Shown: piece after piece, positions 8,021 to 63,500 of the stretch
Position numbering within the stretch: position 1 is the stretch's first letter
How the letters are laid out: each line of letters opens with the position of its first letter
Assembly: GCA_949710005.1 (NCBI GenBank)
Contig: OX453273.1
Location: 35,784,250 to 35,848,249 of the forward strand
Source of the DNA: Ricordea florida
Lineage: Eukaryota > Cnidaria > Anthozoa > Corallimorpharia > Ricordeidae
Length of the DNA stretch: 64,000 nucleotides
Reading direction: 5' to 3'
The notes under the pieces: model-generated
The model's input: only the letters and a program-made list of their open reading frames with translations
What the model was told of the DNA's origin: nothing
Databases searched by the model: none
Position numbers and translations under genes: made by a program

Positions 8021-10331
8021 AGGAGACTGGGACGCGCTAGTTTGATTGGCTGACTGACAGACTGAAGTAACTTGTCACTTGCTTCAGCTGGCGGGAGCTT
8101 TTGGAAAATAAAACAGAAAAGTTGAGTTGAGTGTTCAGGGTTCTGATTCGAAAATATTTCAGAAACAACAACGGGTCTCTGGCAGGACGTTTATTCCTTA
8201 AAAGATCTATATCACGCATAATTCACTTTGTACATGGCATTCCATATATTCCATCTCATGAATTTGATCTTAATAATTTCTGCGTAACTTATGTACACCT
8301 GAAAACGTCACACTTACAACACATAAAACTGCTGTTTCAAACCTTTTTTCAAAAGATCTTATTTGTACTGCTACGAAATAAAACGCACATCAAGAAGAAA
8401 CTTTTACAAATCTGATTGAGAAACCGAGTCGCTTTAGTTAAGGCGACTGTCGAATAAGGAAGATAGACACCAGTGAGACAAATATGCAGTATTCTTAAGA
8501 TGTAAAAATCTTAAACCACGAAATTTTGTTCTCCATAAAATCAGTTCACTAAGGGGTCTTTAATGCACTCACTTCCACTACCAGGTCCGTACCCACAGTT
8601 TCAATCTCTCTGAGATGTGAAGAGAAAAAATTTCAAACCAACACTGAGACAATTCGTTCAAGAGCTTTACTGTTTTAGCAATGACTGTTTTACAAAACGG
8701 TCGTTCTATTTTTTGCATCTTACCATGAAACCATGGAATATCACGATTCTTTGGGAAGTTATACTGGGAAGAGATTTTTTATCCATTTTGCGCGCGTGGT
8801 GGTGGAAGTGGAATTGCAAAGGGATCGCCCTGGTAATACTGCTATTTTTTGTTTAGTTAATATTTCCAAATATGTTTTCATCTTTGGTATTGTGCATTTC
8901 AAGGATCACAACATACTCCCTAAGATGCCGATCTGAGGCCTATTCAGCAACCTTGGAATTTTGAGAAATTTCATTGGCTCACCATCTAGGGACACTCAAA
9001 CCTATCCACCTCCTACGATAACGAAGTGAATAGTGCACGGGATTCTGGGAAATCCTTGTGCAAATGAGTTTGAGTCGAAGAGAAAAAATGGCAGTTGTTA
9101 ATTCTCGCTTTACAGCTGTTTTCGAGAGAGGTCACCGAGGTTGCTTCATTGGTATTTTCAATCTCGGTGAATAGTGGCTTTAGAAATACCACTGTCCACC
9201 AAGACTTCAGATAATAATTGTTAACTACATCAATATTCCTAGTTGATTTCAACAAATTACTGATAAAATCTACTGAATCTCAGAACAATGACCAGCTTGT
9301 TCAACTAATTTAGCAACGCCGAATACAAAAAAGAAAAACGTTCAATCAAAAAATGTCAAAGTAATCGAATAATCCGTTAAAATCCGCTCCACGGATTCAA
9401 AACACAATAAAAACATTGTGGATTTTTCGAAGATAACTTACAGCTGGGAATAAATAAGAAGCTGTCGCAATAAATGGTCCTCAGTATGCAACTGGAAAAA
9501 TAAAACTGAAAGTTCCATGAAATAAGAACAACGAACAAGAAACGCCACGTAACTTGATCGACTTCGCTTAAAGAATTTGCAACAAATCTAAAATTTCTTT
9601 CACGTTTATACATTGGTAAAATCATTAAAATCTGATATACCTCTATATACCGACTGCACCAAAAGCATATCAAACGCCACTTTCACAAGACAAGAACCGA
9701 ACAATTTAACTAACTATTTTGAGTGTTTTTTTTACATCACTAACTTCAGCGACTAGTATTTTCTACGCGATTCTATACGATGAATGCGGCGAACTTGAAG
9801 GCCACCAAATTATCTCGCCAAGTCGCCATTTTTCAAGCGATTTTTACGATTCGGCTCAGTTTCAGAGCGCTGTCCAAGTCTATTTTGAAGAAGTGTTCGT
9901 AACATTCCCGTAAAACTATCGCTGAAAAGCGATCAACATGTTACAAACATGTAATCAACAACGCCTGTGTCATGCTCGACATATATGACTTAGATGCAAC
10001 AGCTGCAGTCATCGTAAAGATGTCAAATGGTGATGCTGTCCCTTGTTCCAATTGCCCCTTAACGAGTTTCAAGGGACTGGCATTGCGTTTGGGCATCATT
10101 CTGATCAATGAACACTGAACACTGGAACATTTCTCAACCAATCCAAAAAAGAAAAAAAACGCCAAAACGGCCATTTTCCCGATCTGTGGGCTTTGCCGAA
10201 TGCAGATTGGTTCACGACCTAATAAAACGCGCTGTTAAAATCATCATTTCAACTGTCATTTGAAAACTATTCGTAAAACCACTGAGCAAGTTAAAATATC
10301 TAAAAACCGACACCTCTCAGCTTTCTCTTCA
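8021..10331. other. convergent spacer and supervillin 3' flank
   Basis: No supported coding exon. Open stretches at 8131-8415, 8617-8856, 9377-9673 and 9941-10174 show no family motif or exon signals. The right end must contain the supervillin 3' UTR; no convincing AATAAA on the minus strand was found near the stop. Confidence 0.4.
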
Positions 10332-10418: not shown

Positions 10419-13400
10419 CTAAGATCAAAACACAATTACTGTAAATGCTACTGACTTTTCGTTTAGTCAGTTCAAGGAAAATACTGATCAACTTCTGAGT
10501 AGACGATAAACCCTTGTTTTTCCAATGCAAACTGAATTTCAAAGTTTTCATTGTTAAAGGTCAATATCATATTAGAAGGTGATTGTCATGACAATTCATG
10601 TGTAATTATCACTTTTATTACATGAATAAATCGGTCCGAGGACCAGTAACTAAAATCACCCTTTCAGATTGCTTCTTCTGTTTTCCCGTGAGGGTCAATA
10701 TTTTACCAGTATCGGACCGGGTAATGTCCTGAACGATTCCGCGTAATTCAAAGCTATATTTTCGTCATTCAAATTAAGCAGGTGGAAAGTATAGACTCTT
10801 TTTCAATGGATAAGTCCTGAAAGGTCGCTAGAAAAAAAAATCCCCACAGTTCAGACCTTGAAATCCCCACAGTTCAGACCTTGAAATACAGATACATATG
10901 ATCGCACTCGATCGCAGACGATCGCAACCGATCGCAAGAATAGAAAATGGTTCTATTCCTGCGATCGCCAGCGATCGCGATCGCACTCGATCGCAGAGCT
11001 GTTCACATATAATCGCAGAATATCGCTGGCGATCGAGTGTGATCGCCTGCCATGTAAATACAGTATAATTATCATTTAATAACAGTGTGATCATTATTCA
11101 CTAAGAAGGTAATTAATTATTAAACTTCCAATCATCATGCAATAACCGTGTAATCATTACCCACTGGGGTTGTAATTACCATGTAATTAACATGTGGACA
11201 CCAATAATTGATGTTCGCTGACTAGCTCTGTAATTACTGACAAACAGCTAAACCAATGTCGTTCCCCTACCTTGAAATCGCTGTCATTGAGGTAATCCTC
11301 GAGTTTTGACGGATCCACACCTTGCGGAGGAGGTACACGTCTCAGTTCCTCCAAAGTGTAGAATTCCCTAAAGAAAAACAGAACGAAAAAGAAGGTGAAA
11401 ACAACACACTGTTTACATTGTAATGGATAATTAACAACTATTCACCGAAGTGGAGGTGGCTAGTGGTGGATATTTACCGAGCCGCGAAGCGGCGAGGTAA
11501 ATATCCACCACTAGCCACCGACACTGAGGTGAATAGTTGTTTTAGTATATACTAAAACAGTGAGATAAGTGTACACACAAAAAAGAAAAGGGCTTGGAAA
11601 ATAGAGGACTTCTCAAATGACAATCCAACGCAGCGTCGATCACCGTAAGGTATTTTTTGTTGTAATTACTGCCGTACGTCTTGTTTACTCGCTGAGAGAA
11701 AAATTTTGTTTAGTTCTAGTGGCGACATTTCATCAAATGGAGTTGCAAACCCTTTCTGTATTTGAAACCATTCTGTAAAAAATATAATTCAACTTTGGTT
11801 CTCAAGTAAACAAGCGACATCAAATTTGGTTATGCAAGATTAATTTGCATTTGTAAACAATACCTTTCTCGTTGCTTTTTACCGCTAAACTCCGGGTTAA
11901 AAACATAAGCCATTACCTCTGAACACGGCCAAGCCAAATTTAGTCGCTTTCTTGGAGTTTTCAGGGACTGCTTCGTTGTTAATTCGGATGATTTCTTCGC
12001 TTGTCATGCATACAAACCGGGCCGCCATATTCGCGCGGCGGAGCGAAAAATTCGCAAGTTGCTCGGAGGTAAATAGCACAGGATATTCAGAGTTTGACTA
12101 CCCAATCAGCGCGAACCTTCAACGCTATCCACTGTTTTAGTATATACTAAGACAAGATATTAAATTCCAAACGGAATAAATAACACTTTGTAGAGAAGAA
12201 CTTTATTTCTGTGTAGTGGTCAAGCAGCTGTAACATTATTTCACATAGTTACTATCAGATTTGGAAATAAAATCTAAAAACAGTTGTTCGTGCAAAAAAA
12301 AAACCTGAATAAAGAAACTCTGAAGGACGATATTGCGTACTTTAGTTTATGTAACACAAAATTCAAAATATTCACATCTACCATATGAAACAAACTAGAA
12401 TAACGCGTTTACTAAACTAGAATAATTCGCTTGAATTACAACTCAAGATTAGGACTGCGTTCTTTTCAGTGGAACGCAACAAATAAATTGCAATAAATAC
12501 AAGTAAATTACAGGTCTGCGAAGACACTTTAACTCACTTGGTAAAGCTTTCTAAGAGATCGCTGGCAAGGTGCTTTGCATTGATCTGCTTTCCATCCTAA
12601 AAAACAACCGACATTCCGTTAGACTGACAACCACCACCAAAACATGCACTAGGAGAAATTTCTATATAAGATCGAGAATTGCCTCATGGTAGAGGCGCTT
12701 TATCGACTTGCTGGATCAATGGAAGTATCTGGACAACTGTGCACCTACCCCTCCCCTGACCCAAACAAGTTATAATAAGTTACAAAGTTAGCGTTAATGT
12801 TGGGCTAAGGGAGGGGTCGGTGCGCAGTTGCCCAGATACTTACATTGATCCCATTTACTGAGGCCCTGTTGGGGGGGGGGGGAGTGCTCATGTCCCTTGT
12901 CTGAATTTCACAAGCGGCTATGTCGGCATTTCGCAAGGTTCTTTTGTCGCTTGTCGGAATTTACCCCTAACAGGGCCTCGTCTATTTTGACATTGGTGTC
13001 GCTTTCCCTATTTCGCTGGAGTAGTCTGTCGTTTGTTTCAAGGCCATGTCGCTTGTCGGAATTTACCCCTAACAGGCAGTCTTTACTGGACATGAAATAC
13101 CGCGACATAAAACGAGTTTCTTTAGGGGGCGATGCGGGGAGCAAGGGGGAAGGGGTGGGGGTGTTCAGGTCCCTGCGCAACGACTTCAAAAATAAGAGAA
13201 AACGTCATTTGTTTATAACTTTTTATCTCTCACAGCACAACAGTAATACAAAAATAAACCAACATCATACTATAGGAGCAGTTTCACCTTGGGACGTTGA
13301 AAATTAGATCGCTCAGTTTTAAACAGAATTTCAGCTTATCAGTAATATTTGCGTTTTCCACTCTTATCAAGTATCAAATCTAGTTCACTTTATCATGCCT

Positions 13401-14420
13401 TACAACTCCCAAAAACCTTTTCCCCAGTACTATCAGAGAACGTTGTAATTCTAGGGCTGTTTTTTTATTATAACCTAACAGTGTTAATGAAATCCTTTTT
13501 TATTATGACCAAGCTTTGTAGTTCTTAAGTTTTTCTTTTTTTTTTTTATTGATCACTACCATTATTATCTTCTAAAAATTGTCACAGAACTGAAAAATAA
13601 AATATGTATCGTTATCTTTAGATAAATATACATAAAGAAAAAAAATCGCTAAACCTCTTTCGTAAATGCACATCAACTAAAAAAGCGGTTCTTTCAGCTT
13701 TTCTTTTAATGCGTTTTCATATTTTCTAAATCCAATCGAGCCGTTTGCGTCAATTTCCATCTCACCAGTACCTGTTTCTGTATCCTAGTGATATCGTGCG
13801 AGTCGTTCCAGTAAGGAAAGAGGACCTTGAAAGACTGTGGTTCCATTCCCGCGTAAACGACATACACGCGGTGAGACACGCGTTTGCCAACCTCTGGAAA
13901 CAAAACAGACGAGAAACTTATTAAAACAAGTGCAAGTTTAAGTTACATACGCACAGCCTGGATGTAAGGTTCGATAAAAGTATTTATAGCTTTATCAACG
14001 ACTTTTTGTAAAGCGTGCTTCAAAATAGCGACGATTGCCACAATAACACAGTCAAAACGGAATTCTAAACTTCTTCCATAGTCAAACCCGGAGTGTGACC
14101 ATCCTTTTGAAAGCTACTAAACAGTGCTGTACTGTGGCGCTGTTTGTTTTATTGTACACTGCGGTTCTAACATTTTTATATGTGGATTAAACCATGCCGT
14201 ATGACCATCCTTTGGGACGCGGGCTGAACAGTACTGTACCGTGGAACTGTTTGTTTCACTATACAGTGTAGTTCTAACTTCTTAATACGTGGATCAAACC
14301 GTGCAATGTGACTATTCTTTTAACAGTTACTTAAGAAATAGAAAACATGTAGCGTGTTTCTATCGAGTTATAGAAACACGAGTGAAAGTTTGGGAGAACG
14401 AGAAATGTTGTGATAACACG

Positions 14421-14451
<31 letters not shown>

Positions 14452-17400
14452 GAGTTCTCCCAAACTTTCACGAGTGTTTCTATAACTCAATAGAAACACG
14501 AAGAACATGTTTTCTATTTCTTTTAGAAAACACCGCGATGAAAAAAAAGAAAAGCAACTTGTTAGCTTTGATTATCAAAATGTAAATTCTCTTTGCTCGC
14601 GTCATCATTACGTCAACAGCTCGTGCTAGTTCTGTGTTTCTATCGAGTTATAGAAACACGATTTCTAACCAATCAGCGCGCGTACTTTCTTAGGACTGTT
14701 TTCTAATGAACACTGCTGTCCTGCCGTACTATTTGTTTTCCTACTGAAACGGTTTTCCTTTAACTACTCCAATCGTTGATAAGAAAAATTATGTGATAAG
14801 AATATGTGGTCCAAAGAAAGCTACTGAATAGTACGTTTCTTTTTTTTTTTCTTTTACACCGCGTTCCTCGTACCCTTTGCATAGTTCAGCGCCGTCTGCA
14901 TGGCCAGACGCCTGTCTCTGTCCCACCGCTGTCTCCCTGACCCTGTTCGTACATCATCGTCATTTTCCAGCATCCAGCCTTCCCAAACATACACTTCATA
15001 ATATCCATCAACAATAAACAATCCTTAGGAGCCAAACAAGATCGTATTAATGAACACTTTATAAAGAGGTTGGTTTCTAAAGAAACTGGGCCACGTCGAT
15101 AGGTAATTGGAACACTCAACACATGACTTTCCTACATAAAATTGCAAGTTAATAATCAAAGTAGGACTATGGTGAACTCGTGGATATGTTTACAAAACAG
15201 AGAAAAAGGAAATAATTTAAAAATTACGAGGTGTTTTTTCAGAGTTGTGATTGAATGAACTTGAATATAATTTTAATAATCTATAATCACAACGTAAAAG
15301 TGACCAGGGAGCTGAGTAGCTTTTTGAAATAAACATACAGTGAGTACATGACGCCAATCATTTGACTACACTAGGCATCAGTTATAAGGCAGGTGGCAAG
15401 CATACAGTTGTTAAAAAATTTGATAACTTAACATAAGGGTACAGGATTAAATGGCACCGAAACCAAATGTAGTTCTGGTATCCTGCTGCTCACTGTCTGT
15501 GAGTTCAAAGTTTCTAACACATGTAACATGGTCCTTCTGAATAAGGTCTGAATTTTGTTGCCATGACAGTGTCAATTTTATCATCATTATAGTTTTTGTT
15601 GTCTACAAGTCTATTCAATGTATTCAACAGAAATATCCACCTTGATTCTGCAGCTGATAATGAACAAAACCATGTAGGATAGCCCAGCTGACGAATCATA
15701 CCAAACAAGTCTTTCTTGCATTTTTGCAAAGTATGTTAGTGATGATCTTAAAATCCTTAAGACTCTCAATCCTTTATCAAGTTGAATTAGTTTATTTACA
15801 TTACCATCTCATTTTAGGTTATCAGTGGTATATATATTCAGGGTTGCACTTAAAAAAAATCACACTTGCCATCATTAATACAGCAATACATATTTGTTTT
15901 TATCCTTATAACTTCTTGTTTTTACAATGTAAATATGATGAGTCACACAACAGTAAGCAAAACAGGTAAGCCTATTTTTCCAACATGTCTACTTCAACAC
16001 AATCTAGTTCACTTCAAGGTAAATTCGGAAATCAATAGACAGAAAACTTTTCATTGTAACGGCTTGTGGTGTATTGTATATAATATAACGCTTAATACAT
16101 TTTCTACATGACTTACTCTTTTCGAACCCTTTTGACTTTCTTACATTGTAATCTTCATGGTTCTCCGCCATGGCATGCGCCTCCATATTTAATGGTAAGC
16201 GTTGACATACTTCTTGACCGTCCCAATACTTCTCCAACTCCATTCCTGTTCGTACTAACACTTAAATCAGTAGAAAAGTCCTCCATGCGATGTTTCTTAT
16301 CCAGGTTGGCCAAAGAAGTTCTTCCGTTTCACATCATGGATTCGTCAATTTATTCTGTTTTCAGTAGTAGTTTCGTTCAATAACGAGTACTCATTTCCCT
16401 CATATGAGTTCTCATTCAAGTGCTAATTTCGCTCTATGAGTTCTCATCAAAGCTTACTACATTAGCAAGAGATTTTCTCATCTTCAGATCACTTTCGAGC
16501 CAACTGAAATTCATATACTGCTTGTAATCTTGGGGGCGGTCGATGGCGGTCGATGTCGGAAAAGCGAATAGTTATCATCTGTTCACGTTTAGCGCCTGGC
16601 CGAGTAAAAGGCTCATGAAATTCAGTCTCCAAGTTGGTTATTGTCCTAACTGGAAACATTTAAACTCCGTTTGATTTTAGTAAGACCGCTAATGAGGCCC
16701 TGTTAGTGAGGTTCTTTATGTCGCGCGTCTGAGTTTCAAACCTTTTCACGTCGCAATTTCGGAAGGTCGAAGGTCGCTGTCGTAATTTCCCGTGAGCGGC
16801 TCGTCGTTCGTCGCCATTTCAGGTCCTTTATGTCGCCGTTTCAAGGCAATGTCGCTTTTCGAAATTTACCCCTAACGGGGCCTCGCTAATCGTCCTCTTA
16901 AGCTACAAAATCATTACAAACTCTGGCAACGGTACGATACACTTTCAGCGTGAACTTTCATCAACAGACTTCCGTGACTTCGGTCACGACAATTGTCGTC
17001 TTCATATCGGTGCCCCCGAGTTCTATCCGACTAATTACGAAGATGTCTACACTGGAGTGAGTGAGTGAGTGACAATTTGCATATCGGAGTCCCCACAAAA
17101 ACTGGCAAATACGCTTCGCGTATCCACGAGTTAAAAACGATATCACACACGGGCCGGTGCCTACAATTGATACCCGTTCTGTGTGATATAACTGTTGGGG
17201 AAGGTTTTTATTCCTACCACTTGGTGTTCGGTGAACCACTCAATTTTTGTCTTACTATACAGCAACCTCTCATGTGAATATTATTTGCCGGGCGGTCAAG
17301 GCCAAACCACAACACCGGGATCAACTTCCCCTACTCTTCGCGAACAGTGTGTGGGTTCTTTAACGTCCATGAACAAGGGTTGTGAGACGGGACCTACGGT

Positions 17401-26400: not shown

Positions 26401-29400
26401 GAAAATGCTAAACATAGCTGCTAGATCAAGAAAATTTACAATATTTTCACTGTTGCAATGATATCAGATCACATCGTTGTAAATGATTGTTATAACAACT
26501 GCAACTCTCTGTGTTGGGAATTTCTTCAAAATGGAAACGCTATCGCTTTATTATGAAAAATACCTACTTACATTCTCTTGTAATCTGTTGGTCGTCTTCC
26601 TATTCCGTTTTTAGACTAATATAATTATTTTCCAGAGACATCTCCAATCGTTGTAGTTGTTTCTACTCGGTTTCCCTTCTAAGCCGTTTTGCTAAATTTA
26701 GTACGCTAATATATTTCGTTATGTAATCGTTCACTCCTGTTCTGTATTTCTATCAATAACACATTCAAATTCAAAACTAACTTGGTTGAATTCCTGGTCC
26801 TTTTCCCTGCTGTTTCGTTTGCCTTTTTCTAGAGCGAGCAGTTTTTGTCTTTGCTGCGATGACGGATGTCTGTTGTTATTCGCCCTGCTGTCGTACTCTT
26901 TCCCTGCTTTGAGTCGTGCTTTCCTCGTGTTGATTTTCACGGTGTTCGAACTTACTCGGCGACGATCTCGGGCTACTCTTTCTTGAATATCTCGGAGATC
27001 ATCTTGCTGGGATACACTTCCAGGACGAGTGAAATCCGTTTCCACAAAATTTACATTTCTTTCAAAAAGGCATCACCGCATTCGAAATGGCGGAAATTCA
27101 GGAGTTCTCAAATACGCTACTATTGCCAGGTAACCTGGCCTGCGAACGGACACCTTTAAAATATAGATATATATATATATATATTTATATATATAAAAAG
27201 TTATGATGCTTCGAGCCAACAGGGATGCCACACGCCAGAAGGATCCAAAAGGATTCGTAGTCCAAACCTCGAGTAATGAAATTTGTAGGCAATTGTGGAA
27301 CACGAGGACGGACAACTTCGAGCGAAAAGAAAAAAAAAATATATATATATATACAGTAAAAAATCTAAAAAAAGTTTAAAAATTTAATAAAAATAGACGT
27401 TTCGGTCAATGACCTTCATCAGTTGCAGTGCCTGACCTTCATCAGGCACTGCAACTGATGAAGGTCATTGACCGAAACGTCTATTTTTATTAAATTTTTA
27501 AACTTTTTTTAGATTTTTTACTGTATATATATATATATTTTTTTTTTCTTTTCGCTCGAAGTTGTCCGTCCTCGTGTTCCACAATTGCCTATATATTTAT
27601 ATATATATATATACATATATAAAAACTCTCGGCTCGATTTACTCGGGCTTGCGAGCCACGTGGTCTGACCGGAAGCGACACGATTAGTAACCTCGCTACG
27701 CTCGGCCTTCGGCCTCGCTTCGCGAGGAATTACACCATTCTGCAATCAAGTTCTTTAATTTCCTTTTTTTTGGCTCCTGCAAATGAAATAATGAAGGAGC
27801 CAATATGTCAAAGGAAACACGAATGATTGAGTGAGTGAAGTAGCCAATCAGCGCGTGCCTAGTATTTAGCCAATCACAATACACAATACAATTCGCTTTT
27901 ATATCGATTTATTTTTAAACTCAGAAGAGAATATGTAAAAGTAATGAAATCGAGGAAAGGCGATAGGTATGGCAAAAAGGGCTGAATAAACTTAATAAAT
28001 GCAGTAGCCACATGTATGCAATGCTTGCCTATTTTTATCCTTGTGCAGCAAAAAGAAAACGTTTAGTTCTTGCTCAATCAAAATAAGGGGTTCAGGAATA
28101 GTGATTATTGCTACGAGTAATAATTTATCACGAAAAAAGGAATCTGTGGAAACGGTGCACGTGATACTCTATGCATATGAACGTAATTACAGAGAGAGCC
28201 CGTTCTTAATGATTTCTAAGTCAGTCAAAATTTGTTTCGGAGCCTACATCAAACTATTCTGGAATAGGTAATTGATTTCGCTTCTTTTCTAGATACATGA
28301 TGACACGCTGTCTATCAAGTTTGAAACATCAACTGTTTCAAACTCTAATGGCCGGTAAGTTATAATATTTTTTTTGAGCGCTTATAATTTATAGGTGCAG
28401 TTAGGAGTTACCTCCCCTGGTGTATGATCATTCCTCCTTTGAACAGATTCAGAAATACCGGATTCTCTTTACCCTGGACCACTCGGACCTGGCAGTCAAG
28501 AGACAAACCTAATTTCAGTCATTTTATTGCTACTATCAGCTCTTGTTATATACCTAGACTTTCACTCAACAAAACGAGCACTGTGATTGGTTGATTTTTG
28601 GTCACGTGCTCCTGATCAAATTCAATTGTATCCCGACCGGGATACAATTGCGCAGTTGTTGCCCGCCCGAAAGTTGTACCGTCTTTGTTTGCTTGTTTTT
28701 ACTAAGGGAAAGTCGAAATATACAACAAAGCACTTAATGTATGGTCTCTCGGGAAACTAGTTAGTTTTGTTTTCCCTCGAGTCCTGATGTTTGCGTCTCG
28801 GGAAACATTAGGACTCTCGGGAAAACAAAACTAACTGTTTCCCTCGGTGCCATACATTAAGTGTATAGTGTTACTTGCTCGGGCAGGCCCGGGGCCTGTT
28901 TCTCGAAGGTCTTGATATCGTTCGGGGCACAGAGCCCTATTTTTAAGTCGCAGGCCATCGAATGTTTGTGTAGTTATTGACATATAAACCGGACCAACAT
29001 ACAAGATAACTTAAGATGGTCTGGCTTATTTACAACAAAATTGTAATTTCCGTTTTAAATATTGTTATTACAAAATTTATTTCAGGAAAGTTACGGGGCC
29101 TTTCGAGAAGCGGGCGCCTGAAGGGTTATGACTTGGAAGAATAATAATTATCTTGTTGAGTTCAGTTGAATAAACCTACATTTCAAACCACTAATCATTA
29201 AACAACCAGATATAAAAACGATTAAAGGATAAACAAAAACTATAACTTTGGGGAAATAAAGTCCCCAGCTTTCCAGTGATAGACCAACCTATTTTGAAAC
29301 AAAGTCGTTCCATGTTCGGTTTGCTCGATTAATCGGCATTGTAAGGCAAAACCAAAAGACCAGGCCTTAAAACAGAGGCGGGGTTAGAGGTGACCGTGTT

Positions 29401-32400: not shown

Positions 32401-35400
32401 ATTCATTACTAAGTACTGATAATGATTTTGAGGAGAAATTGGTTGCTCATCATTTATCAGGACAAAAAGGTTGTCCTTTCAACTCCCAAAAGTAATGAAA
32501 AGTAAAAAAGGAATTCTCCCTAACCACAGCCAGCAGGTGCAATAAATCCATTTGTGTGTCACAGTAGCTGAAGAGTTTGGAGTAAGAGCAATTCCGTATT
32601 TTGACTTGATCATTCTCATAAACCTTATTATCTGTTTGTTTGACAATTTAGTAAACGTACATTGTAAAAGGAAGTTAAACAAAGCGTTCTGATGCTTTCT
32701 AAGTTCAAGTGATCCTAAAATGCTCCTTTAGTCAAACAGTAAATATTGTCAATTGACTCACTGGATGAAACGCTTTTGATAAAAATTAATGTTAAGATTA
32801 AGTCCCGCACGAGACGTGCAGGATCTCCAAATGATGGGGCTTTACACCCTACGGATCTCTAATTTTATCATATTTTTCCTTGCTATCGCTTTTTTTCCCA
32901 TTAAACAGTTTATAGAATACAGCAATATCTACCGACTTAACCAGGCTATGCCAATGAAGATAATTATAACGTAAAAAGGAAAACACAAAACATGAGCAGT
33001 GTACCTGAGGTGCCAACTCCAGGCAGCTGGGATGCCCCTTCATTCTAATAATTTTAGTCGGGTCAGGCCAATCAAGGAACTTTTCACGAAACAGAATTGT
33101 TTCTGCCTTTTCATGAAGTCTTGCAAATAACGTCCATCGAGGTCTCTTGGAAGGGTGTTTGTTGTCTACCTCAATGATGCATTGGTCTGATTTACCGTAC
33201 GGATAAATTGGATCGTAAATACCGTAAGGTTTAAAAGGCTGCTCGTAAAGTTGTCTTGCCAAAGCAAATGCAGACTTCCTTTGTCCAGACAGAGACTGTT
33301 GGCCGTTCCATACGTAAAGCTCTGATCCAAAGTCAAATACGAAAACCTGGAGAAACGAGAAAAATTAATGCTCAAGGTAAAGACTTGCAAGATCTTAATT
33401 TGACTGCGGGATCTACGTGCCACTACCACCTTTACTGCAGTCCACTACTTATAATAAACCAAAAATTTTCCAGTTATAACATTCCTCAAAAATCAATAAC
33501 CATAAATTTCATTTCTAAAAGGGGCTATGTTTTAGACCGTTGATGGTAAATTCAATCACTCAATCAATAATCTATCATGACAACCTCGGCATTCAACTTC
33601 TGCACTGTACATCAAACTAGAATCACGGTCAAAAGCGAGTCATGGAATCAGTACCAGTATTTTTTCCCAATTTCACGTGATCCGTTACGTTTTCGCGCAT
33701 GATGCTGCATGCCCGAGTCTTTTCGCTCTATATATGGAGCAGTGACATGCGCCAACGACAATCGTTTAGATAAGAATTGTAGGCTTCTCTTGATTACTGG
33801 CAATTAACAAGCAAACACGACAACAACGCCGAGGACGGCACCAGTGAAAAAATAATTACAGTACTTTCCTTCTGTACTAAAGCAGCCTGCTTGTTTTATT
33901 TTACTTCCATATTTCTTTTAAACTGTAGGATTTTTAATTAGAATTCTAACCGTTTTATGACTATCACAGCTTCGAGAAAACTTGAAAAACAATCATTCCA
34001 CGTCACTATTTTTAAGTAGACGAAAAAAAGGAAACGTACCGGACTGTAATTTGTGCGTGCAGTTTTATTGTTCCGCCGTTCATTGACGTTTTTTCTCTTT
34101 TTTTGGTGCCGTCCTAGTTCGCGACGTATTCGTGTTTTGATGATGCTTCCTACCTCAACGCGGACGACGACTATGTTTTGGTTACATTTCGTGAATCTGC
34201 ACATGAAACCTAACTCAGCGTCATGGTGTTGGTTTTGTATAAGCTTAGGCAATACTTTGGCAACCGTTTTCGTTCTATTGCCTTTTAGACAGGTAAACCA
34301 GAGGATGAATGAATTACATACACCCTTTCTTAACCTTAAGATTAAAACACTAATTATATAGCAGTCAGTTAATCCAGTATTGCCAGCACGGCTATTATCC
34401 TTTAATTTTTCAGAACTGTCCAATTTGGGATTTAATTTGGACAGTTTTCAATATGGAATTTGAGTAAAAATGCAGAAACTGTCCTATTTGGGAAAAAATA
34501 GGTCAGTTTGTTTCAGCCAATGAAATCCAAGAAAAAACAATAGATTGTGAAACCAACCAATCAGCCGTGAAGAAACGTCAGCACTGAAAGCAGGACAGGT
34601 CGCCATTGTTGTTGACAACATGGAGGAATTCAGTGAAGAAAATTTGCCAAATTTTTCCATCTTTAGCAGTTCTAACACAAATGAGAGAATTTCATGGTTG
34701 CAGGAAGAGGAAATTAGTACTCTTAAAAGCAGAAACGAAAACTCAAACACCGCCAAGAGCACAAAAACGTGGCTCAACGTTTTCAACGAGTGGAAACTCC
34801 AGCGTAACGAAGCTAAGTACCCGTAAGCAACGTAAGTTCCCATAGTTTTCCTCGCGAAGCTGTATTTCCTCACTAGCTATATAATTAATAAGTAACAGGA
34901 CCACATGCTTGTCCAATTTGGAAATAATTGGATGAAAAAAATTCCTCTGACAGCCAAATTGGACTCGGCCTACGGCCTCGTCCAATTTTGGCTGTCCTCG
35001 GAATTTTTTTCATCCAATTATTTCCAAATTGGACAGCATGTAGTCCTATTACATATACTAATTTTGGACAATAAGATGATTCAACAGAAAATGGGCCTCT
35101 TGGCTGATTACAACAAAAGCATTAATACCTCTTTTGTATCCAGAATGGAGACTTGCGGAAGGTGTCCACACATGGTCTCCACAGACATAAGTGTAGGCGG
35201 ATCTGTCCAATGGATTTTATACACCATGTTCCCTTTAACAACACCCTTTTCATACTCTTCATCTTTTGGCAAGGCCTCGCCACCTAGAAAACAGATTGAA
35301 AAGAAAGGGAAACAGGCGTGTTGCATTCACAAGAAAGTACTGTACAAATAATTTATTTGAAACCAAATTCACAGTTAACACTTTTACCGCCAACAGTTAA

Positions 35401-41400: not shown

Positions 41401-44400
41401 GTTTTCTGGCCTGTAAATAGATTGGTTTAATCAGTTTAAACAGTACCTACCCTGCGGTTTGGTTTGAAACTGCATCCAAGTCCTCCAAAGTAATTGTCAC
41501 TTTAGAAGGTTCAGGTTTTTTCAAATCAGCCTCCTGCTTAGCAACCTTCATATCATAAAAGTCTCTCAAGCCTTCTTCAAACACACTAGGCCTTCGTCCT
41601 CTGATAATCGGAGACAACAGTGCTTCCTGAACACTGGGCTTATCGTCAACTTGCTTTTCAACCTGCTCTTTTTCATTCCAGTCCTGTTTTTCCACCTCTT
41701 CATTTTCAAGTGGAATCTCTACTGCTACAAAATCAAACCGCTGAAAAAGATTGGATTCCGACTTTGTCTTCATCATGCTGAATGGCTTGAGTGATTTCCT
41801 CTTTTTGTTTTTGGAAGCTGACAAAAAATCACAGTATTAATTACATGAGTGACATTAATTTTGCCATTGTGGCAAAAAAAAATGGATGCACATGCAGTGC
41901 AATTTATCCACCAAACATGCAGTACTTAAAGTTAGATTACAAGTGATGATTAGATTAGGTATCATTAGAGTTGTACTGAGAGAAGCTGACTAAAAATTAC
42001 TTTACCAGTAAACTGACATCCTGTAATTAACTAAGATGAACTGAATTCGTCCACCTTCATTAATTAAGCTAAATAGTGAATTATTATTATTTTTTTTTGC
42101 TCTTCTACAACCTAGAGTCTCTTGCAAAATTCATGCAATTGTATTAATTTTATTACTTAAACCATGAGGCTACCTTGTGCATTATTGATGCAGGAACCAT
42201 GCAGAGTGACCATTCTTTGAAAGAAAATAAATGTATATATATAGAATCACAGATAAAAAAGTACTGGGTAAAGGCAATAAAATACTGTTTGTGTTTGATT
42301 ATTCCTGCCACATTAAGTTGAATTTGTTTTGACTCCATTACTTACTAGAATGTTCATCAACAATGTGCAAGTGATCGGAAGGAGATGTAATCAAGTAGAT
42401 TGAAATAATTAATATTCACTTTTTATGCAACATATTATGACCTCAAAAACTGAATGAATGTGAAACTAAATATAAAATTATCTTCAACATAAATGTCTTT
42501 AAGCAATCAGTTAAGGCATCCACACTGAAATGTAAGCAAACCACTCATAAACAAATCCTGTTTTATGTCTCCAAATATTTGAGTCTTACGCTAATGATTT
42601 AAACATCATGATGGTTAAATAATCAAGTCACTAACTGAATTATGGTAAATACAAATATATCACACATATATCTCTATGTAAAAATAATCTTTGCTATAAA
42701 GAAAGCTAGTTCAGATTAAATTAGCTCGAAGTATATGCTGAATTATAAAGTAAAACAAAAAATACCAACATCACACAGTAATTGCAATTAACTGAAAACC
42801 TAACACCCAATGAAAGGTGTCCAATCTTTAAAAGACACAGAAACACTAGGATTAAAACTTAGATATTACAAACACAGTATTACAGCCATGACTAAAACAC
42901 TATCATGACAAGTGATGTTTTCAACTCGCTCAAAACCCTAGCAGACGTGAAATTTGCACTCTTAAAACTACCAAATTTTAGTCTTCATTACACGTAAGTT
43001 TACAATAATAATACAAGAATGTATACCAAAAATGCATCCATGATCTAACTCCTGGATATCAATGCCATCAATAAAGATGAAGATTTACTTTAAGCCAAAA
43101 TTGAAGGGGGAGATGAGCAAGGCAGCAACTTGGCTAATTTCAATCTGTTGCTTCTCAGCTTATCTTCCGTTGCCTGATGTATAGAACAGATATCACAATC
43201 TTGCATTTTTCAAAGGGTTAGACAAACAAGTAAACGTTTTAGTTTACAGTGACAGCTTGGCCGGTTCTCAGGTTCTTATCACCTAAATTTTGCCTAGACA
43301 CTATCTTGTTTAGCTAAGGTACAGTAAAAACAAACATAATGACAAGATACCATCTCTTCAAAGCAATGCACTTTGACCCAGAGAATATGAGATGACAACA
43401 TTGTAAAATATGTATAAACATTTTGCTTTTTTTGATAGCAAGCATTAACACATAATTTATACTGCAGGAACAACAATGTTTTTTCAATGGATGATTTAAA
43501 ACACAAACTTGTCAAGGAGATTAGAGAGCTAATAATAAGCCAGATGTCAAAATATGGGAACTGGCAGAGCTAGGATGGTTGAAAACTGCTAAATTTCAAA
43601 CTACTTTTTCAACAATTTTGATACTGCATGTTATGTTAAATTAATGTCTTCCTTCACAGTGTAGTTCAAGACAATGTCTGCCTTCTTACTAACAGAGACT
43701 TTTTCTTAAACACAAACACATGCTATGGAAACAATTATTGTTAATATCAAAACAAACCACTGGAAACAAAATAAATTCATTGACACCATTGAAGATTTGA
43801 TCATTTGAAAAGAAAACAAAATTAAAATTAAATGGTACACTGTACATGTACGTGTACGTGTATAATGCACACAATAACTAATCAAACACTTCCCTAGTAG
43901 CTGTGGTGTCTAGCACCTTTCCACAGAATGGCCATACTTTATGTAGTTAAAACCCATATGACTGTTTAAATATTGTAGAGTATACTACAGGTTCCCTGTA
44001 CTGTTCTGCACGGTTTTCAAAGAATGCTCACACTGTATCAGCTGAGAAAGGATAATTTTGCCAACAAAACTAAAAACATAATACACCAAGGTCAATATTT
44101 ATTATCTATGATTACAAATACGACAATGGCATTTCAGTGTGGTGGGATGAGTAATGCATGTGCAATATACTACAGTGTAAGTCACTTCCAATCTCAAGTG
44201 TGTTTTATAGTTGTCAAGTAAACACAAAACGAAATCAAGAAGTCACCCCCACACGAAAATTATGCAAGGCAAGCTTTCTCATGTAAACATCCCCAAAGCT
44301 ATAGCACAGAGACTTACGTTTCTTGAGTGACTTCCTTTCCTTTGGTGATTTCTGCTCAATTTCTTCAATTGGTTGGAGCTGAATGTCTCTGTCCTTTCCG

Positions 44401-54143: not shown

Positions 54144-57100
54144 GTAAATCGATGAAACCGGAAGTGCCGCGAGTTATAAAGCTTGCGTAGGTACTTCCCA
54201 AAAAGAGTAAAAGGAATGATTTCCGCACAGGTCCCTACTTAATTATGCATGCAGCAGATAAATTGTTTAGGGTAATGCACATTAATTTGTTTTTGGATAC
54301 CAACAATCTAAACTTATTTATATACTGAGAGACCTTGCACTTAAATTAAGATTTAATGAATACAGTTTTGTAGACAGCTATATTGGTCTTACCCTAAAGT
54401 TTCAGGCATTCTTTATTTTACATTATAAAATAACACAGTTACTACGTGCATGCTGATTGGTCGAAAACCCATGGGTTATTTCAACTCATGATTCACAAAC
54501 TCCTCTCGTGTTCTCCCAACATCCTGCGTGGATTATTTAACAATTATTCGCCGAGGGCGAAGTGATTATCGAGGAATATTCACCGAGACGAAGTCGAGGT
54601 GAATATTCACCGAGAATCACTGAGCCTGAGGCGAATAATTGTTTTAGTATAAATACACAGGTGATTATTTCAAAAAAGAAAAGAAAAAGCATTATACAAC
54701 ACGAAAAAGTTTTATTTCATTAAAGACGCGCGAACGACTGGCAGCCATTTTGTTCGTCGAGGTGATTATCGGCTGATAATCCGAGATAGCGAACCAATCA
54801 GAGCGCGCGATTTTGTATAATCACCTGCGTATTTCTACTAATATGCGGATAAACCCATGGAAACTGCAGCTTATTGCTTATTGACCTAATGTGTGATTTA
54901 AGATATAAAATGCATTTCGTTATAGGAGACAGCATTGCACTTGGCAGTTCGACATGGTAAGGAAGAGATTGTGAACCTGCTGCTTAAGAGTCCTGAAGTT
55001 GATGTAAATGCAACTGATAGTGTAAGCCAATGTCTAATTGTGTCTTTGCAGACAGATATTGTTGGAAAGACAGGGAAAGTCATGTTGATTTAAATCTCTA
55101 TTGCAGCATCAGCGTACAGCACTTCATGTTGCTGCAAGTGAACCAGGTGCACAGAATAACAGTGCTGGGATCATTCAGTTACTTCTTTCTCAGAGGAATA
55201 TTACAGTTGACAAAGAAGAAACAGTAAGAACAATCCATACTGGTTGAGGTCCCACTTAGCTTTTTACTCCAGACAAATGTTTCACCGTCGTAAAAGAATT
55301 TAACCCGAAGTTAATTGTGATAAATTCAGATAATTGACTTGGACATAAGCCAGATGACCTTGGCCTTGATGCTTTGGGAATTCTTATGTTCATGCTTAAA
55401 ATTGCTTGTACCACAATAAACTGCACTTTGCTATGGTAAGAAAATACTAGGCCAAGTGTGACCTTAACCACTGTAGCCTTAAAATTCTCAAGAGATTTTT
55501 GGCCAGGGAAATGGATAACTGGTCCTAAAAATATTGAATTGCAAAATACTAGGGGAGTATTCCCTTTTACAATTTATATATAGAATTTATAGGTAAATCA
55601 AGCAGTAGCAAATTGCTAATGATTGGTATCATATTGTTGGGAGTAGCTTCAAATGATTTGCTACCACTCGGTATATATCACTATAAACTCTATATAATGA
55701 AAATAAAATTAGTTGGTTGGTTCAAGATACAAAAATTTCTCTTCTCGTGTTAGAAAATATTTCACTCATTCAATGTCCTCATTCATGGTATATTTTTTAA
55801 TACACAAACAGAAATTTTCAGGGTGAGACGAAAATGAAAAGATCAGGTTGCCCTTCGGGCAAGCTGTTACTTGAGGTTACTAGCCCGAAGCTCTGAGGAG
55901 CTAGCCTGAAATTACATTGTTTATAAAGAATAATCAGATTTAATTATGCAAAACACAAGTACTGATACCAGGCATAGATGTAAACTAATTCTTCGTAGTA
56001 TTTAACATTTTACCCCCGTTGACGGTCAAAAATATTATAAATTTATGGAAATCACAACACAGTTATTTTTGTGAATGTCATGAATATTGCGATCGGTCAA
56101 TTAAACTAGTACTGTAATCTGAAGTCTGTTGACACTCTATGAAGTAAATTCTCTTCAAAGCTCGTCAAGCTGACAAACTCTATTGCGGCAACTGAAATGC
56201 GGCACAAAACGTTGTCATGCTACTATAATTTGGTCTCAAAATGTTATCATTTTCTCTCAGGAGCTTTCTGCTAGACTCTTCTTGGTATTAAGGCTCAATT
56301 TATCGTCAGAAAAGAGGAACCAATGGTGCTTTCCCGTCGGGCAAGCTACGATAACAAAACGCTAGCCCAACAAGTCATTCCACTAGCCCCTGGCTATCGG
56401 ACGGCACTTTCGTCGTACCCTGAATTTTACATCTTTAAGCACAGCCATGCAACATCCTCTATGTAACAAAAATTAATATCAAGATGCTATGTGTGGCAAC
56501 ATGCATTGTTATTTGCATATTACTTTTAATAAAAATGACTTATGTAATAACATTAAGGCTATTTGTCAATTAACAGCAAAGCTCCTCCTTTAGGCTTGAC
56601 TAAATTTATATATGCAGGGTGTGACAAAAGTGCTGTCCAGTAGCCCTGGGCGAGGGAAATAATGTGTCAGTTATTTAACCCTTTAAGCCCCGAGGGGTCT
56701 CCCTGTGACGAGTAAAATCGTCTGGCGTTAGCCAGAGTAAAATCTATTAGTTATTTAACCCTTTAAGCCCCGAGGGGTCTCCCTGTGACGAGTAAAATCG
56801 TCTGGCGTTAGCCAGAGTAAAATCTATTAGTTATTTAACCCTTTAAGCCCCGAGGGGTCTCCCTGTGACGAGTAAAATCGTCTGGCGTTAGCCAGAGTAA
56901 AATCTATTAGTTATTTAACCCTTTAAGCCCCGAGGGGTCTCCCTGTGACGAGTAAGATTGTCTGGCGTTAGCCAGAGTAAAATCTCTTAAGACACTATTG
57001 AGGCTTAGAGGGTTAAGGGGAATTTTCTGCACAAACACTGGTCAGAAAAGCATAATTTAGTGACATAAAACACAAAGTTTGACATTCCATCATAAGATAA

Positions 57101-60100: not shown

Positions 60101-62126
60101 ATTCCATCGTTTGATCGTAATTATCGCTGTGTTTACTGGAAGCATTGAAAATAATCAACAAACATTGGAAAAAGAACAGAAACTTTATTAAGAATCCCAA
60201 CTGGTGAAAGGCAGACCAGTTGGCTGTCTACAAACGTGGAAAAAGATTGAAACTCGGAATGACCTTGTTACAGATCCAGCGAGTGGTTGAGACTCGATTT
60301 GAACCCGGGACGACCAGATTTCATGTCAGCGTCCAAACCACTCGGCCTCGTTACCTCCCTCTTGATGAGTCACAACTACCGCCGGTTAATTTTCATTTAA
60401 CTAATAAGGATACAAAATAGTTCCATAATCATCAGTATCTTCATATCAATACCATTACCTGAACCATGTCTAGCAAGGATTTGCAAACTTGTCCTAGGAA
60501 CAGTTTGAATATACGTTATATGAATAAATCACATGGTTTTTGCATTGCGGTTGGAAACATATACCTCTTATTAATCGAGTTCGAGGTCCGTACTGTAAAA
60601 TACGGACCGAGTTTTTTCCCTTCCCATAAATCGACGGGAAAAAACGAGGATCCGTATTTTACAGTACGGACCGAGAAAACGAGGTTAATAAGATATTTAT
60701 TATATCTCTGGAGTCATTTTGGCGACCAAAACAAACTTTAGCGGGCCGTACAGTGAAGTACGGCCCGCTAAATTGACCAATCACAGCGCGCGTACTAACT
60801 GAGAGATATAATAAAATTGAATATTTGACCCTTGCTGTGTTGTCGCGTTTTTAAACAGTACTAGTTATTATTTGGCCTGAAAAAGATACTACATAGCTAA
60901 GTTGCTGTTGCAAAGGTTGCGCTGATACTGCGAGGTTCAAATCTTCAATTGTCTGCAGAATATGGAAAACAGTGAACTACAATTCGATAAAACCCTAACT
61001 AAATATGAAACTTTTCTTAGCCAAAAACGGATGTTCCTTCGACAATTATAAGCCACTGCGTTCGAGTTTAAAAGTTTAAAATACGGCACTTTCTTGAGAA
61101 CTGGATTTGTCTGATCAAGCAAAATTGATTTTGTAGAAAAAATCAACGCTGGTTTCGACGATTGTTTCACTTGATTCTCAATAAGTGCGTGATTGTCCTT
61201 GTCTTTGGTGGATAAACATTTGAGGATTTTGAGATTAATGTTACAGACAAATAGATCTTACTTTCAGTCCGCCCGAAAAGACAGTCGTACTTTCACTACG
61301 AACTCAACTATTTATTTGTAACTGGCACTTGAAATGTTATAACTTGAGTAGTCTACAAAGGGAGCGATCGCTTAACTTAAATATACGCTAACAAGCTATC
61401 TCTTAACTTCACAACTAAATATTTCAATCACCACTGACACTACAACTCACGAGCTCCTTGAAAATAACCACTTGAGGGCAACAACTCCTGTGTACCCATT
61501 CTGATAGCTTCTCCAGACAACTTCACGACAAACACGATCCCCAGACCACGACTCTAGACGTCTTTAGACTACTTCAGAGCGAAGGACCTAGAGCTGTGTG
61601 GAACTGTTCCTTGTATACATGTAATCATGTGCCAAGGCCTTTTTGCGCGAAGAAAAAACTAAGATTGTCTGGATGGTCGAGATTATATTTATCGCCCGAA
61701 AGCTAACTCAAGAGAATGTTACAAAGATGAAAAGGATAAATTGCAGATGGCTTACAATCGTTGTGAACCTTAAAGCTAGTATAGGCTTATAAGGATAATA
61801 ATAATCATAATCATAATCATAATAATAAGTAATGGTAATAGGACTGAGTAGAGTCCAATTCGGTGTGTAATCATACCAATGATTAACAAAATCGGACGAC
61901 CGCTTAGCGGGAGTCCGATTTGTTTAATCACTAGTATGATTGCAGAACGAATTGGACGACACGAAGTCTTATTACCGATTAATCATAACTTTAACAAAAA
62001 TTTCTGATATATAAACTTCTCTTTTTTTAAATCAAAACACCTGAAATTCCAAGATTTTTTTGCTAGCAGGAAAATAAAAGTCATTTAATCGCGCGCGGAT
62101 GGCGCGTACTGTCAAATTGTTTAGGC

Positions 62127-62165
<39 letters not shown>

Positions 62166-63500
62166 TGTCCTATTTAACTGTCCTATTAAGGCTGAAATCA
62201 GGACAGTTGATAGCCAATCAGATTTGAGAATTTTGTTATGGTTATAATTATAACAATAATTGGAATAATCATAACAATCGGGCACGAAAATAATTTATTA
62301 TAGTATGTCTTGCCCGAAGCAAGTCCTTTCGTCGTGTTCGATGGTCTTTTCCTATCACGATCACAACCGATCAATCACTGCAATGCTACTATAGTTCGCC
62401 TTATCTTTATAAAAAGATATGTGTTTGGCAACTTTGTGCTGTTTATTTCCAAGTGATAATTGTATCGGGCTTGCCGCTTAACCGACAAATAGAGCACGTT
62501 TTGACAACTCTAGCTAGGTGAAAGCTAGGCTAACCGCGTGGAAATTCCTGAGCACATAATATCGTAGTAAAATAGAGTAAATGTTGCTTCAAAAAATGTT
62601 CAAAACACGGTATTTTTGACACTGTCACATTGAGTCACAAAGAAATCTAGAACATTCCGAAAGGCTACAATAATAACTATTTGTTGTAAGATTACTTCAC
62701 TCAGTTACATCATGTTATAGTGTTCTAGAACTCTCCATAACGAATGTTGCGTGACTAAACAAATATCTCCATATTACTAGGTTCTAGAAACTTCTCCTTG
62801 TAACATTAAGCCTGATATTCGCTTTAATTTCAGATTGTTTTTGAGAGCGGAATACCTCAGATGGAGCAGATTTTTGCGGATAGTGGTTGGTAACGTATAT
62901 CAAGTATCAAGGACTTCGTTTTGTTAACATACATCGCTAAGTTGCTCTGACCTCGGAAACTCGTAAAGTTCCATTTGTAAACGTAAGACCAGTAGTCCTG
63001 ATGGTCACTGGGTGAACTTAAAGCTCTCCAAAAGGAGCTGGAAAGCTGGAATCCTTACAAGTGTTTTAGCTCTTCACGCCCACATTACCGCCCCCTCCCC
63101 CTCCCCCCTAAACCCGTCCCTGGCTGAGATAAGAGCGGTTTAAAGCTGGTTTACGTGTAAACAAACAAAGGAAAAAGCACGTTATGTTTGTCATTTTTGC
63201 TGCCGTCGTCTCGGTATCCACCTACGACGCAACGGGGCCAGTATAAGCGTAAACACAAGGGAATATAATGGTCTTCATTCTCGTGTGTTTTGCCAATGTT
63301 TGCGTCGTTGCGTCGTGCAAGTAAACCAGCCTTTGCAGAGTAGTACCCCATCTTAACGTGATTTAAGGTTTGGTTTCAGTTAGAACAAACTTGATTTATA
63401 GGTTACCAAGTTTCTGAGATCAGTCAGGTTGGAGAAAATTCAGTTGTGAGTGTTGGATGTAACGCCCTTGTAGACCGATCAGGACGCTTATCTCTTCCAG
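54003..63500 (+). CDS. ankyrin-repeat protein, 5' part (continues past the window or ends near 62.9 kb)
   Basis: Exons 54003-54143, 54926-55021, 55107-55223, 57159-57257, 57608-57715, 59444-59548, 59893-59973 and 62834-62889 join with all internal borders in phase 0. They give MNVSQNTSAFKLAICNGNLT and five or six ankyrin repeats (consensus TALHLAVRHGKEEIVNLLL, TPLKLAAEKGNIAAVKMLL, TPLHLAAEKCC), then a partial repeat TPADLAVASQEVLALL. Ankyrin repeats are protein-binding scaffolds; nothing here identifies the partner. No signal peptide or membrane segment is seen, so it is probably intracellular. At 62889 the frame either ends (TGG TAA) or splices; a likely further exon is at 63402-63500 but its phase does not fit the obvious donor. 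The ortholog is not recognised. Confidence 0.82.
54539..54842 (-). mobile_element. hairpin-plus-body element at 54.5 kb
   Basis: Hairpin 54539-54642 (AACAATTATTCGCC arms, GTGAATATTCACCG inside). The body is bounded by TTAGTATAAATACACAGG and the inverse CCTGCGTATTTCTACTAA, with GAACCAATCAGAGCGCGCG at about 54790. A short minus-strand frame starts MAASRSRVFNE at 54748. It lies in ankyrin intron 1. Confidence 0.72.
54926..55021 (+). CDS. ankyrin gene exon 2 (one repeat)
   Basis: Encodes ETALHLAVRHGKEEIVNLLL and KSPEVDVNATDS. Acceptor CGTTATAG, donor AGT|GTAAGC. Confidence 0.93.
55107..55223 (+). CDS. ankyrin gene exon 3 (one repeat)
   Basis: Encodes HQRTALHVAASEPGAQNNSA and IIQLLLSQRNITVDKEET, with an insertion in the repeat loop. 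Acceptor CTATTGCAG. Confidence 0.92.
56675..57016. mobile_element. TTAA-ended MITE with 80-bp internal tandem
   Basis: TTAACCCTTTAAGCCCC at the left and GGCTTAGAGGGTTAA at the right are inverted and carry TTAA at both tips, as in piggyBac- or Kolobok-type MITEs. The left part is expanded into four 80-bp units beginning at 56671, 56751, 56831 and 56911. Each unit contains TCTGGCGTTAGCCAGA. Confidence 0.85.
57159..57257 (+). CDS. ankyrin gene exon 4 (one repeat)
   Basis: Encodes HGNTPLKLAAEKGNIAAVKM and LLGKNADITKADK, a canonical 33-residue repeat. Confidence 0.95.
57608..57715 (+). CDS. ankyrin gene exon 5 (one repeat)
   Basis: Encodes ARNTAVHVAAKKGHFEVLWL and LLSCCKNLSIIGQQNK. Acceptor GATTTAACAG. 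Confidence 0.92.
57820..58830. other. repeat-rich part of ankyrin intron 5
   Basis: Contains hairpin-forming relics (GAAATTTCTCTTCGAGTGTT at about 57839 and CGATATTTCTCAG at about 58110) and a fragment of the 22.6-kb repeat. No coding exon seen. Confidence 0.4.
59444..59548 (+). CDS. ankyrin gene exon 6 (one repeat)
   Basis: Encodes NKDTPLHLAAEKCCKLTVAV and LLYYGADITITTENE. Donor GAG|GTACGT. Confidence 0.95.
59631..59735. repeat. hairpin in ankyrin intron 6
   Basis: GGCCAGACGGGAAAATATTTG pairs with CAAATATTTTTCCGTCTGGCC; the loop has GAGCGCACCGAG. Confidence 0.85.
59893..59973 (+). CDS. ankyrin gene exon 7 (C-terminal partial repeat)
   Basis: Encodes QKQTPADLAVASQEVLALLR and DPKTARK. Acceptor CATTCTACAG, donor AAG|GTTAGT. 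Confidence 0.88.
60250..60350 (-). mobile_element. tRNA-Ser/Leu-like SINE head or pseudogene
   Basis: The minus strand has GAGGCCGAGTGGTTTGGAC (A box) and CCGGGTTCAAATCG (B box). The variable and anticodon arms are not convincing. Confidence 0.5.
60567..60815. mobile_element. hairpin-plus-body element at 60.6 kb
   Basis: Hairpin 60567-60692 with GTCCGTACTGTAAAATACGG in both arms. The body is bounded by TTTATTATATCTCT (about 60698) and its inverse AGAGATATAATAAA (60802-60815). TGACCAATCACAGCGCGCG lies at about 60774. It also holds the palindrome CGGGCCGTAC...GTACGGCCCG. Confidence 0.7.
61797..61830. repeat. AAT/CAT microsatellite
   Basis: Runs of AATAATAATAATCATAATCA directly left of the 61.8-kb hairpin. 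Confidence 0.85.
61829..62230. mobile_element. hairpin-plus-body element at 61.8 kb
   Basis: Hairpin 61829-61980 (GGTAATAGGACT, GTCCAATTCG, CAATCATAC, ATCGGAC arms). The body contains three GCGTACTGTCCAATT-type repeats and ends near GATAGCCAATCAG at about 62205. Terminal inverted repeats are less clear than in the other members. Confidence 0.55.
62834..62889 (+). CDS. ankyrin gene exon 8 (terminal or penultimate)
   Basis: Acceptor TTAATTTCAG. Encodes IVFESGIPQMEQIFADSG, then either W and TAA in place or a phase-2 donor GGTTG|GTAACG. Confidence 0.6.
63402..63500 (+). CDS. possible further exon of the ankyrin gene
   Basis: Acceptor TTTATAG and strong donor CTTCCAG|GTGAGC. Open only in the frame YQVSEISQVGENSVVSVG and then RSGRLSLP (phase 1 to 1). 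The preceding exon would need a phase-1 end, for example at the weak donor AGTG|GTTGGT. It may instead belong to another transcript. Confidence 0.4.

Follow-up and report, generated by a model that had tools for sequence, protein, structure and literature searches.

A 720-bp repeat (element A) in the window, by which we mean the whole 64,000-nucleotide stretch of DNA analysed here, appears to be an internally deleted Crypton derivative that is probably mobilised in trans and carries a split palindromic recombination site, a reading to which we assign a probability of about 0.8; the site may be read largely by its fold. How Cryptons recognise their ends has been open, the known animal members being described without terminal repeats, and in the present case many families together display the ends, the target rule and a conserved fold.

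Element A and its genomic copies

A search of the 537.8-Mb genome that contains the window (48 contigs) with the originally predicted interval of element A returned full-length matches for all 40 scored candidates, one being the window copy and the other 39 matching at 96–97%, so that the plan of the element is not a product of chance; as 40 were scored out of 1717 first-look candidates, this copy number is a lower bound. Matches of at least 400 bp in loci L001–L058 (59 rows) were reduced to 53 distinct copies. In 49 of these the match begins at element base 1 and in 43 it reaches base 720; both ends fall exactly at the borders of hairpin and body in 41, and the remaining 12 are truncated or rearranged. 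Mean divergence among the 41 full copies is 3.2% between copies and 1.8% from their majority sequence. That copy ends coincide with the hairpin and body borders agrees with the original prediction, although its interval of 11433..12152 gives way to ends at 11431–12150. The element and its parts are as follows.

11431..12150, minus strand: element A, whole, 720 bp, almost certainly a non-autonomous Crypton (copy ends)
12129..12150, minus strand: 5' end arm of the putative palindrome, earlier named a TIR, TTAGTATATACTAAAACAGTGG (first 32 bases identical in the coding relative on contig C16)
12102..12113, minus strand: CCAAT block, putative promoter, CCAATCAGCGCG on the plus strand (sequence match)
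11917..12028, minus strand: exon 1, MAARFVCM... (same exon and donor in the C16 relative, locus L112)
11773..11916, minus strand: complete intron, GTAATGG ... TTTTTTACAG (aligned to the L112 intron)
11564..11772, minus strand: exon 2 remnant, out of frame (alignment to the M-family recombinase exon)
11542..11563, minus strand: 3' inner arm, inverted copy of the 5' end (pairing and comparison with the C16 relative)
11433..11541, minus strand: 3' terminal hairpin with TC/TC internal loops and a C-TTC-G tip (folding)
11431..11432, minus strand: terminal two bases AA, predicted to bulge at the crossover once the ends are joined (copy ends and joined fold)

The layout first read from the window is borne out. 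The hairpin lies next to a body with inverted ends, its arms (11433–11485 and 11489–11541; 53 nt) being 89% complementary and the inverted pair (11537–11562 and 12130–12155; 26 nt) matching at 96%. The CCAAT block claimed for the interior was located at 12102–12113, where it may act as a promoter, and the proposed first exon does start with an ATG at 12028 and end at 11917 on the minus strand, ahead of the donor GTAATGG. This exon had been taken for an orphan, a reading ruled out by the intron and the start of exon 2 that follow it within A. Within the exon 2 remnant (about 209 bases), a 30-residue stretch aligns with the recombinase exon of a coding family, M, at a score of 64, as against a maximum of 45 in 200 shuffles, the frame having changed upstream of this stretch.

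An origin of exon 1 from an unrelated host gene was also considered and ruled out: the exon has at least 150 matches, all of the 150 listed are dispersed, and it belongs to a Crypton-type gene. With regard to selection on exon 1, differences among the short copies comprise 27 synonymous and 48 non-synonymous changes (uniform expectation 0.26). Two adjacent A copies in opposite orientation, one of them truncated, occur at L014, and positions 8944–9088 of the window resemble the flanks of A copies L039 and L040 and represent another repeated element.

Coding relatives

Element A retains a 5' end, a putative promoter, exon 1, a whole intron, a broken start of exon 2 and a 3' end, and sequence comparison makes it nearly certain that it is a non-autonomous Crypton derived by internal deletion from a two-exon DUF3504 tyrosine-recombinase element. 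A full-length relative with a recombinase exon downstream of the same first exon, of the kind that the original prediction envisaged, lies at C16:14430848–14432834 (1,987 bp; L112). It shares the putative promoter, exon 1 and intron of A. Its first 32 bases are identical to those of A and the following sequence can be aligned throughout up to the acceptor, with one 11-base gap, so that 379 bases at the 5' side are alignable, exon 1, donor and acceptor included; its 3' arm and hairpin are nearly identical to those of A. Downstream, it holds a 415-aa frame without stops that is 42% identical to M exon 2, according to the match row. It is the single copy above 90% among the 40 scored, the other 39 lying at 87–89% over the shared part, like the A copies. 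This coding relative with the same ends supports the earlier suggestion that these are non-autonomous elements, or derivatives of Cryptons, in which promoter and first exon are retained. Inspection by eye of the coordinates of exon-1, PF12012 and M-exon matches yielded no coding parent of A; L112 was reached by fetching the upstream sequence of five groups from the M exon 2 matches. Genome-wide, M exon 2 gave 108 matches and PF12012 at least 151 (150 of 673 candidates scored).

Seven recombinase-coding families have the same end plan, namely X, Y, M, P, Q404, R426 and W, and full-length coding partners measure about 1.8–2.4 kb and encode tyrosine recombinases. The frames of X, Y, W and M match PF12012 (DUF3504) and Phage_integrase and contain a complete R...HxxR...H...Y motif, read by eye, and P, Q404 and R426 come from rows of matches to the M exon. 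Groups X and Y are intronless and about 1.85 kb long, with ends defined from several copies, and in both an inverted copy of the 5' end directly precedes a long 3' hairpin. M, as seen in L093, has two exons: exon 1, followed by a donor placed as in A, and, beyond an intron, a 393-residue exon 2. The 5' end of M recurs in L096, L097, L099 and L100, and its 3' end is defined from L093 alone. The expected M 3' end was not found at L101 and L102, nor the expected 5' end at L098, where an M hairpin stands instead. A second pair of parent and derivative is formed by a 404-aa family (L105, L108, L109) and element N, located in L093, and a 430-aa family (L111) carries the 5' part of window element E. 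The plan is thus not confined to short elements and belongs to the recombinase-coding elements themselves. A further DUF3504 group, Z (L059, L060 and L063; 514-aa frame), displayed no such ends on inspection by eye, which indicates that the plan is not universal among DUF3504 carriers in this genome.

Other elements of the window

The same plan had been proposed for sites at 14.3, 28.5, 34.4, 54.5, 60.6 and 61.8 kb, and each of these proved to be a dispersed multicopy family, with matches that stop at, or a few bases from, the predicted borders. The scatter of borders is greatest at 61.8 kb (element G).

14331..14706, minus strand: element B (40 of 40 scored candidates; 39 others at 97–99%)
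28543..28867, plus strand: element C (matches at 89–92% to the window copy)
34351..35058, plus strand: element D, exon 1 from 34620 (genome copies)
54537..54841, minus strand: element E, with a recombinase-coding relative in L111, 5' part only (copies and L111)
60561..60814, minus strand: element F, no tip motif, 3' end uncertain by a few bases (copies)
61829..62250, minus strand: element G, with DNA kinship to the recombinase-coding W family (copies)

Full-length copies at 99–100%, the window copy among them, make up 33 of the 40 candidates scored for element D, a near-uniformity across the genome which implies very recent multiplication. The description of these recurring elements as unrelated in sequence stands only in part, since A and the 54.5-kb and 14.3-kb elements all begin with TTAG.

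Elsewhere in the window, positions 27279–27598 contain a 157-nt hairpin that is 99% perfect, with CTCG tip-like motifs (27692–27717) and a CCAATCAGCGCG block (27844) nearby, and perhaps represent a further element of this class. The longest open frame of the window spans 44235–48371 on the minus strand (1378 codons, stop to stop).

Target sites and junctions

Across the 41 full copies of A, the base that follows the final AA of the element is variable (T 23, A 9, C 8, G 1), the second target base is always T (41/41), and the third is A in 38 copies and G in 3; the preceding base is A in 29. All 49 intact 5' ends keep T as the element's first base, including cases where the target base is not T (18 of the 41 full copies), which implies that both ends are exchanged at the same bond each time, as is found in 41/41 full copies. 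A 2-bp TA target duplication was considered separately and ruled out, the left-hand base at the 5' end always being T (49/49) while the matching right-hand base varies.

A clean empty site is available for L010, where the E-type element that A has entered is intact in nine further sequences, including the window copy at 54.6–54.8 kb and the coding relative L111, and L039 has a weaker empty match in L005 (78.8%). Neither duplication nor loss of target bases was found at these two empty sites. For the X family, 13 loci examined by eye always have TAATAATATAC at the left end, and A (10 loci) or T (3) as the first right-hand base. Head-to-tail arrangements also occur: A follows an E-type end at L012, L025 and L052 and precedes an E-type start at L021 and L023, and L081 consists of two joined X elements.

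Inverted ends and hairpin as probable parts of one palindrome

When the two ends of an element are joined to each other, they form one long predicted stem in 11 of 11 elements (A–G, X, Y, P and M), the 5' end continuing the hairpin. In nine of them (A, B, C, D, E, G, X, Y and P) the joint itself has 2–6 unpaired bases; the joints are less clean in F, of which the end is uncertain, and in M. In 14 of 14 families, the 5' end pairs best with its own 3' inner arm, at a mean of −17.8 kcal/mol for own-arm pairings and −5.4 kcal/mol for 180 foreign pairings (A/P excluded; best −11.0), although some of these families are related to one another: A and P form a single lineage, A/E/Q/R share the sequence at the base of the hairpin, and X/Y/D/G/W share GTAAT...ATTAC. 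Both the joined stems and the pairing control indicate that inverted ends and hairpin make up one site, and we consider it very likely that this is a single palindromic recombination site split off-centre by integration. The TIR and the hairpin of the original prediction are present in the sequence, as parts of one palindrome and not as separate features.

These palindromes set the families apart from the Cryptons described so far. CryptonA and CryptonI elements are similar in having a single YR (DUF3504) gene and no target duplication (judged here from the empty sites of A), and CryptonI-1N1_RPro and CryptonA-1N1_OL are likewise abundant short derivatives that share both ends with a coding element (PMC3212892). 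For animal Cryptons, however, Kojima and Jurka 2011 (PMC3212892) report that no terminal repeats were found, whereas the seven coding families here have inverted arms, together with a long 3' hairpin and a shared loop grammar. A literature search at title level, outside Repbase, returned no title on hairpin ends of Cryptons.

Loop grammar and strand

In sense-strand folds of 13 hairpins, 28 of the 33 2x2 internal loops are TC/TC (25 of 30 when P, of the A lineage, is omitted), 18 of the 28 taking the form CTCG/CTCG; the other 40 internal loops are of other sizes. A C-TNC-G tip is found in nine of the 13 hairpins (the exceptions being C, F, G and P), and also in W. Scanning the window for a CTCG...CTCG tip gave six hits, four of them at the tips of elements A, B, D and E and a further, overlapping pair at 27.69–27.72 kb. 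By the same measure, the flanks of A, B and E form at least 12 of 20 pairs, those of D form 10, owing to a bulge, and the two overlapping hits are without long arms. One tip hit occurred in 20 shuffled windows, and it lacked such arms; in the window itself, the other 14 mismatch dinucleotides gave no hit flanked in this way, GA representing the same hairpins on the opposite strand.

Seen from the antisense strand, the TC/TC loops read as tandem GA/GA and the tip as a GNA triloop. The predicted energy of this strand is the more favourable in 10 of the 13 hairpins, by 0.8–5.9 kcal/mol; for C, F and M the sense strand is predicted to be as stable or more so, by 0.2–1.1 kcal/mol. Tandem G·A mismatches in a CGAG context are stable. 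DNA minihairpins with GNA loops, which contain a sheared G–A pair, are reported to be extraordinarily stable (PMC6479982). Since the conserved loops face each other only in a folded strand and differ between the two strands, the predicted folds suggest that one folded strand is what gets read.

Individual copies also vary within the hairpin. One of the 41 A copies has an inverted hairpin tip and one a paired double change, in single A copies one hairpin arm has turned into the perfect complement of the other, and an inverted tip also distinguishes Y copy L069 from L070. The inverted tip and corrected arms of the A copies fit quasi-palindrome correction and are not counted as evidence on transposition.

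Proposed mechanism and alternatives

We propose that element A is moved in trans by the recombinase of a C16-like element or a close relative. Element A would leave as a circle, or a circular copy of it would be made, and there the 5' end would meet the hairpin and 3' inner arm to give a single long palindrome that has unpaired bases at the joint. Recognition of this site by the recombinase would depend largely on the shape of the folded antisense strand. Exchange at a single bond would insert the element ahead of a target triplet, NTA in the case of A, with replication completing integration as for integron cassettes. Integration would cut the palindrome off-centre and so leave the ‘TIR’ and terminal hairpin seen today.

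The folded single-strand exchange in this scheme is drawn by analogy, and we put it slightly short of even odds. Integron attC sites are not conserved in sequence and are recognised in the form of a folded single strand, the choice of strand being made by unpaired bases (PMC2727003). The elements described here are alike in having a tyrosine recombinase, a conserved fold with unconserved sequence, unpaired bases that mark the strand and one fixed exchange point (PMC2727003). Integrons differ: they are bacterial, work with another recombinase and have attI as a fixed platform, whereas insertion here is dispersed and the fold is known by prediction. More tentatively, and as a possibility that we would not yet call probable, a large class of tyrosine-recombinase transposons in animal genomes may operate in the manner of integron cassettes, with a long hairpin, folded from one strand, that is read by shape (tandem G·A, GNA triloop), and with insertion of that strand at a three-base target through a single bond. 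If shape and not sequence is recognised, many sequence-unrelated miniature families could ride on few recombinases; if a strand is read folded, this would amount to a eukaryotic equivalent of the recombination of integron cassettes and would account for the plan common to short elements of unrelated sequence. Recent copies of D and a matched coding partner for A bring excision, the choice of strand and recognition by shape within direct experimental reach.

Ordinary duplex recombination of the same elements by the same enzyme is the chief alternative to a folded-strand exchange, and we consider it a serious possibility if a doubtful one. The arms would then be plain binding sites, and a double-stranded DNA circle would integrate via two staggered exchanges, as in the scheme proposed for Cryptons (PMC3212892). 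Tyrosine recombinases usually bind a palindrome around a short core, and the 2–3 bp match between element and target (TTA/NTA; TAA/WAA) would serve as one. A mismatched staggered overlap, however, should leave target bases at the left end of some copies, where the T of the element stands in 49/49, and the conserved mismatched loops are opposed only in a folded strand.

Far less probable are non-autonomous Helitron2/Helentron (HINE) elements with captured Crypton genes, moved by rolling-circle activity of an HUH Rep. Asymmetric inverted arms with a 3' palindrome are indeed present here, in the end geometry described for Helitron2, Helentron and HINE elements (a terminal 5' arm, and its inverted copy directly before the terminal 3' palindrome), and these elements share with ours tandem or head-to-tail arrays and, for most of them, the lack of a target duplication (PMC3627910, PMC4067079), which we also note at the empty sites of A; Rep genes are, moreover, abundant in the genome (at least 150 Helitron_like_N matches), so that a Rep partner is conceivable. 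Yet Helitron2 elements encode a Rep-helicase, for which the coding partners found here (about 1.8–2.4 kb) are too short, and what these encode is a tyrosine recombinase, so that seven diverged families would each need to have captured the same gene. The hairpins, at 106–192 bases, are also far longer than those of Helitron2 and HINE elements, and the target is A/N before NTA or WAA, as against the T-rich or TT sites described for HINEs. An ordinary TIR transposon or MITE moved by a DDE transposase would account for inverted repeats and high copy number, but can practically be dismissed given an inverted copy that is not at the terminus, empty sites without target duplication, and full-length relatives that carry no transposase among those seen.

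Separately from the Crypton-type mobilisation that we favour for element A, DUF3504 and Helitron_like_N matches both recur at a spacing of about 28 kb on contig C14 (20.34–20.50 Mb), as if a large tandem unit contained both genes.
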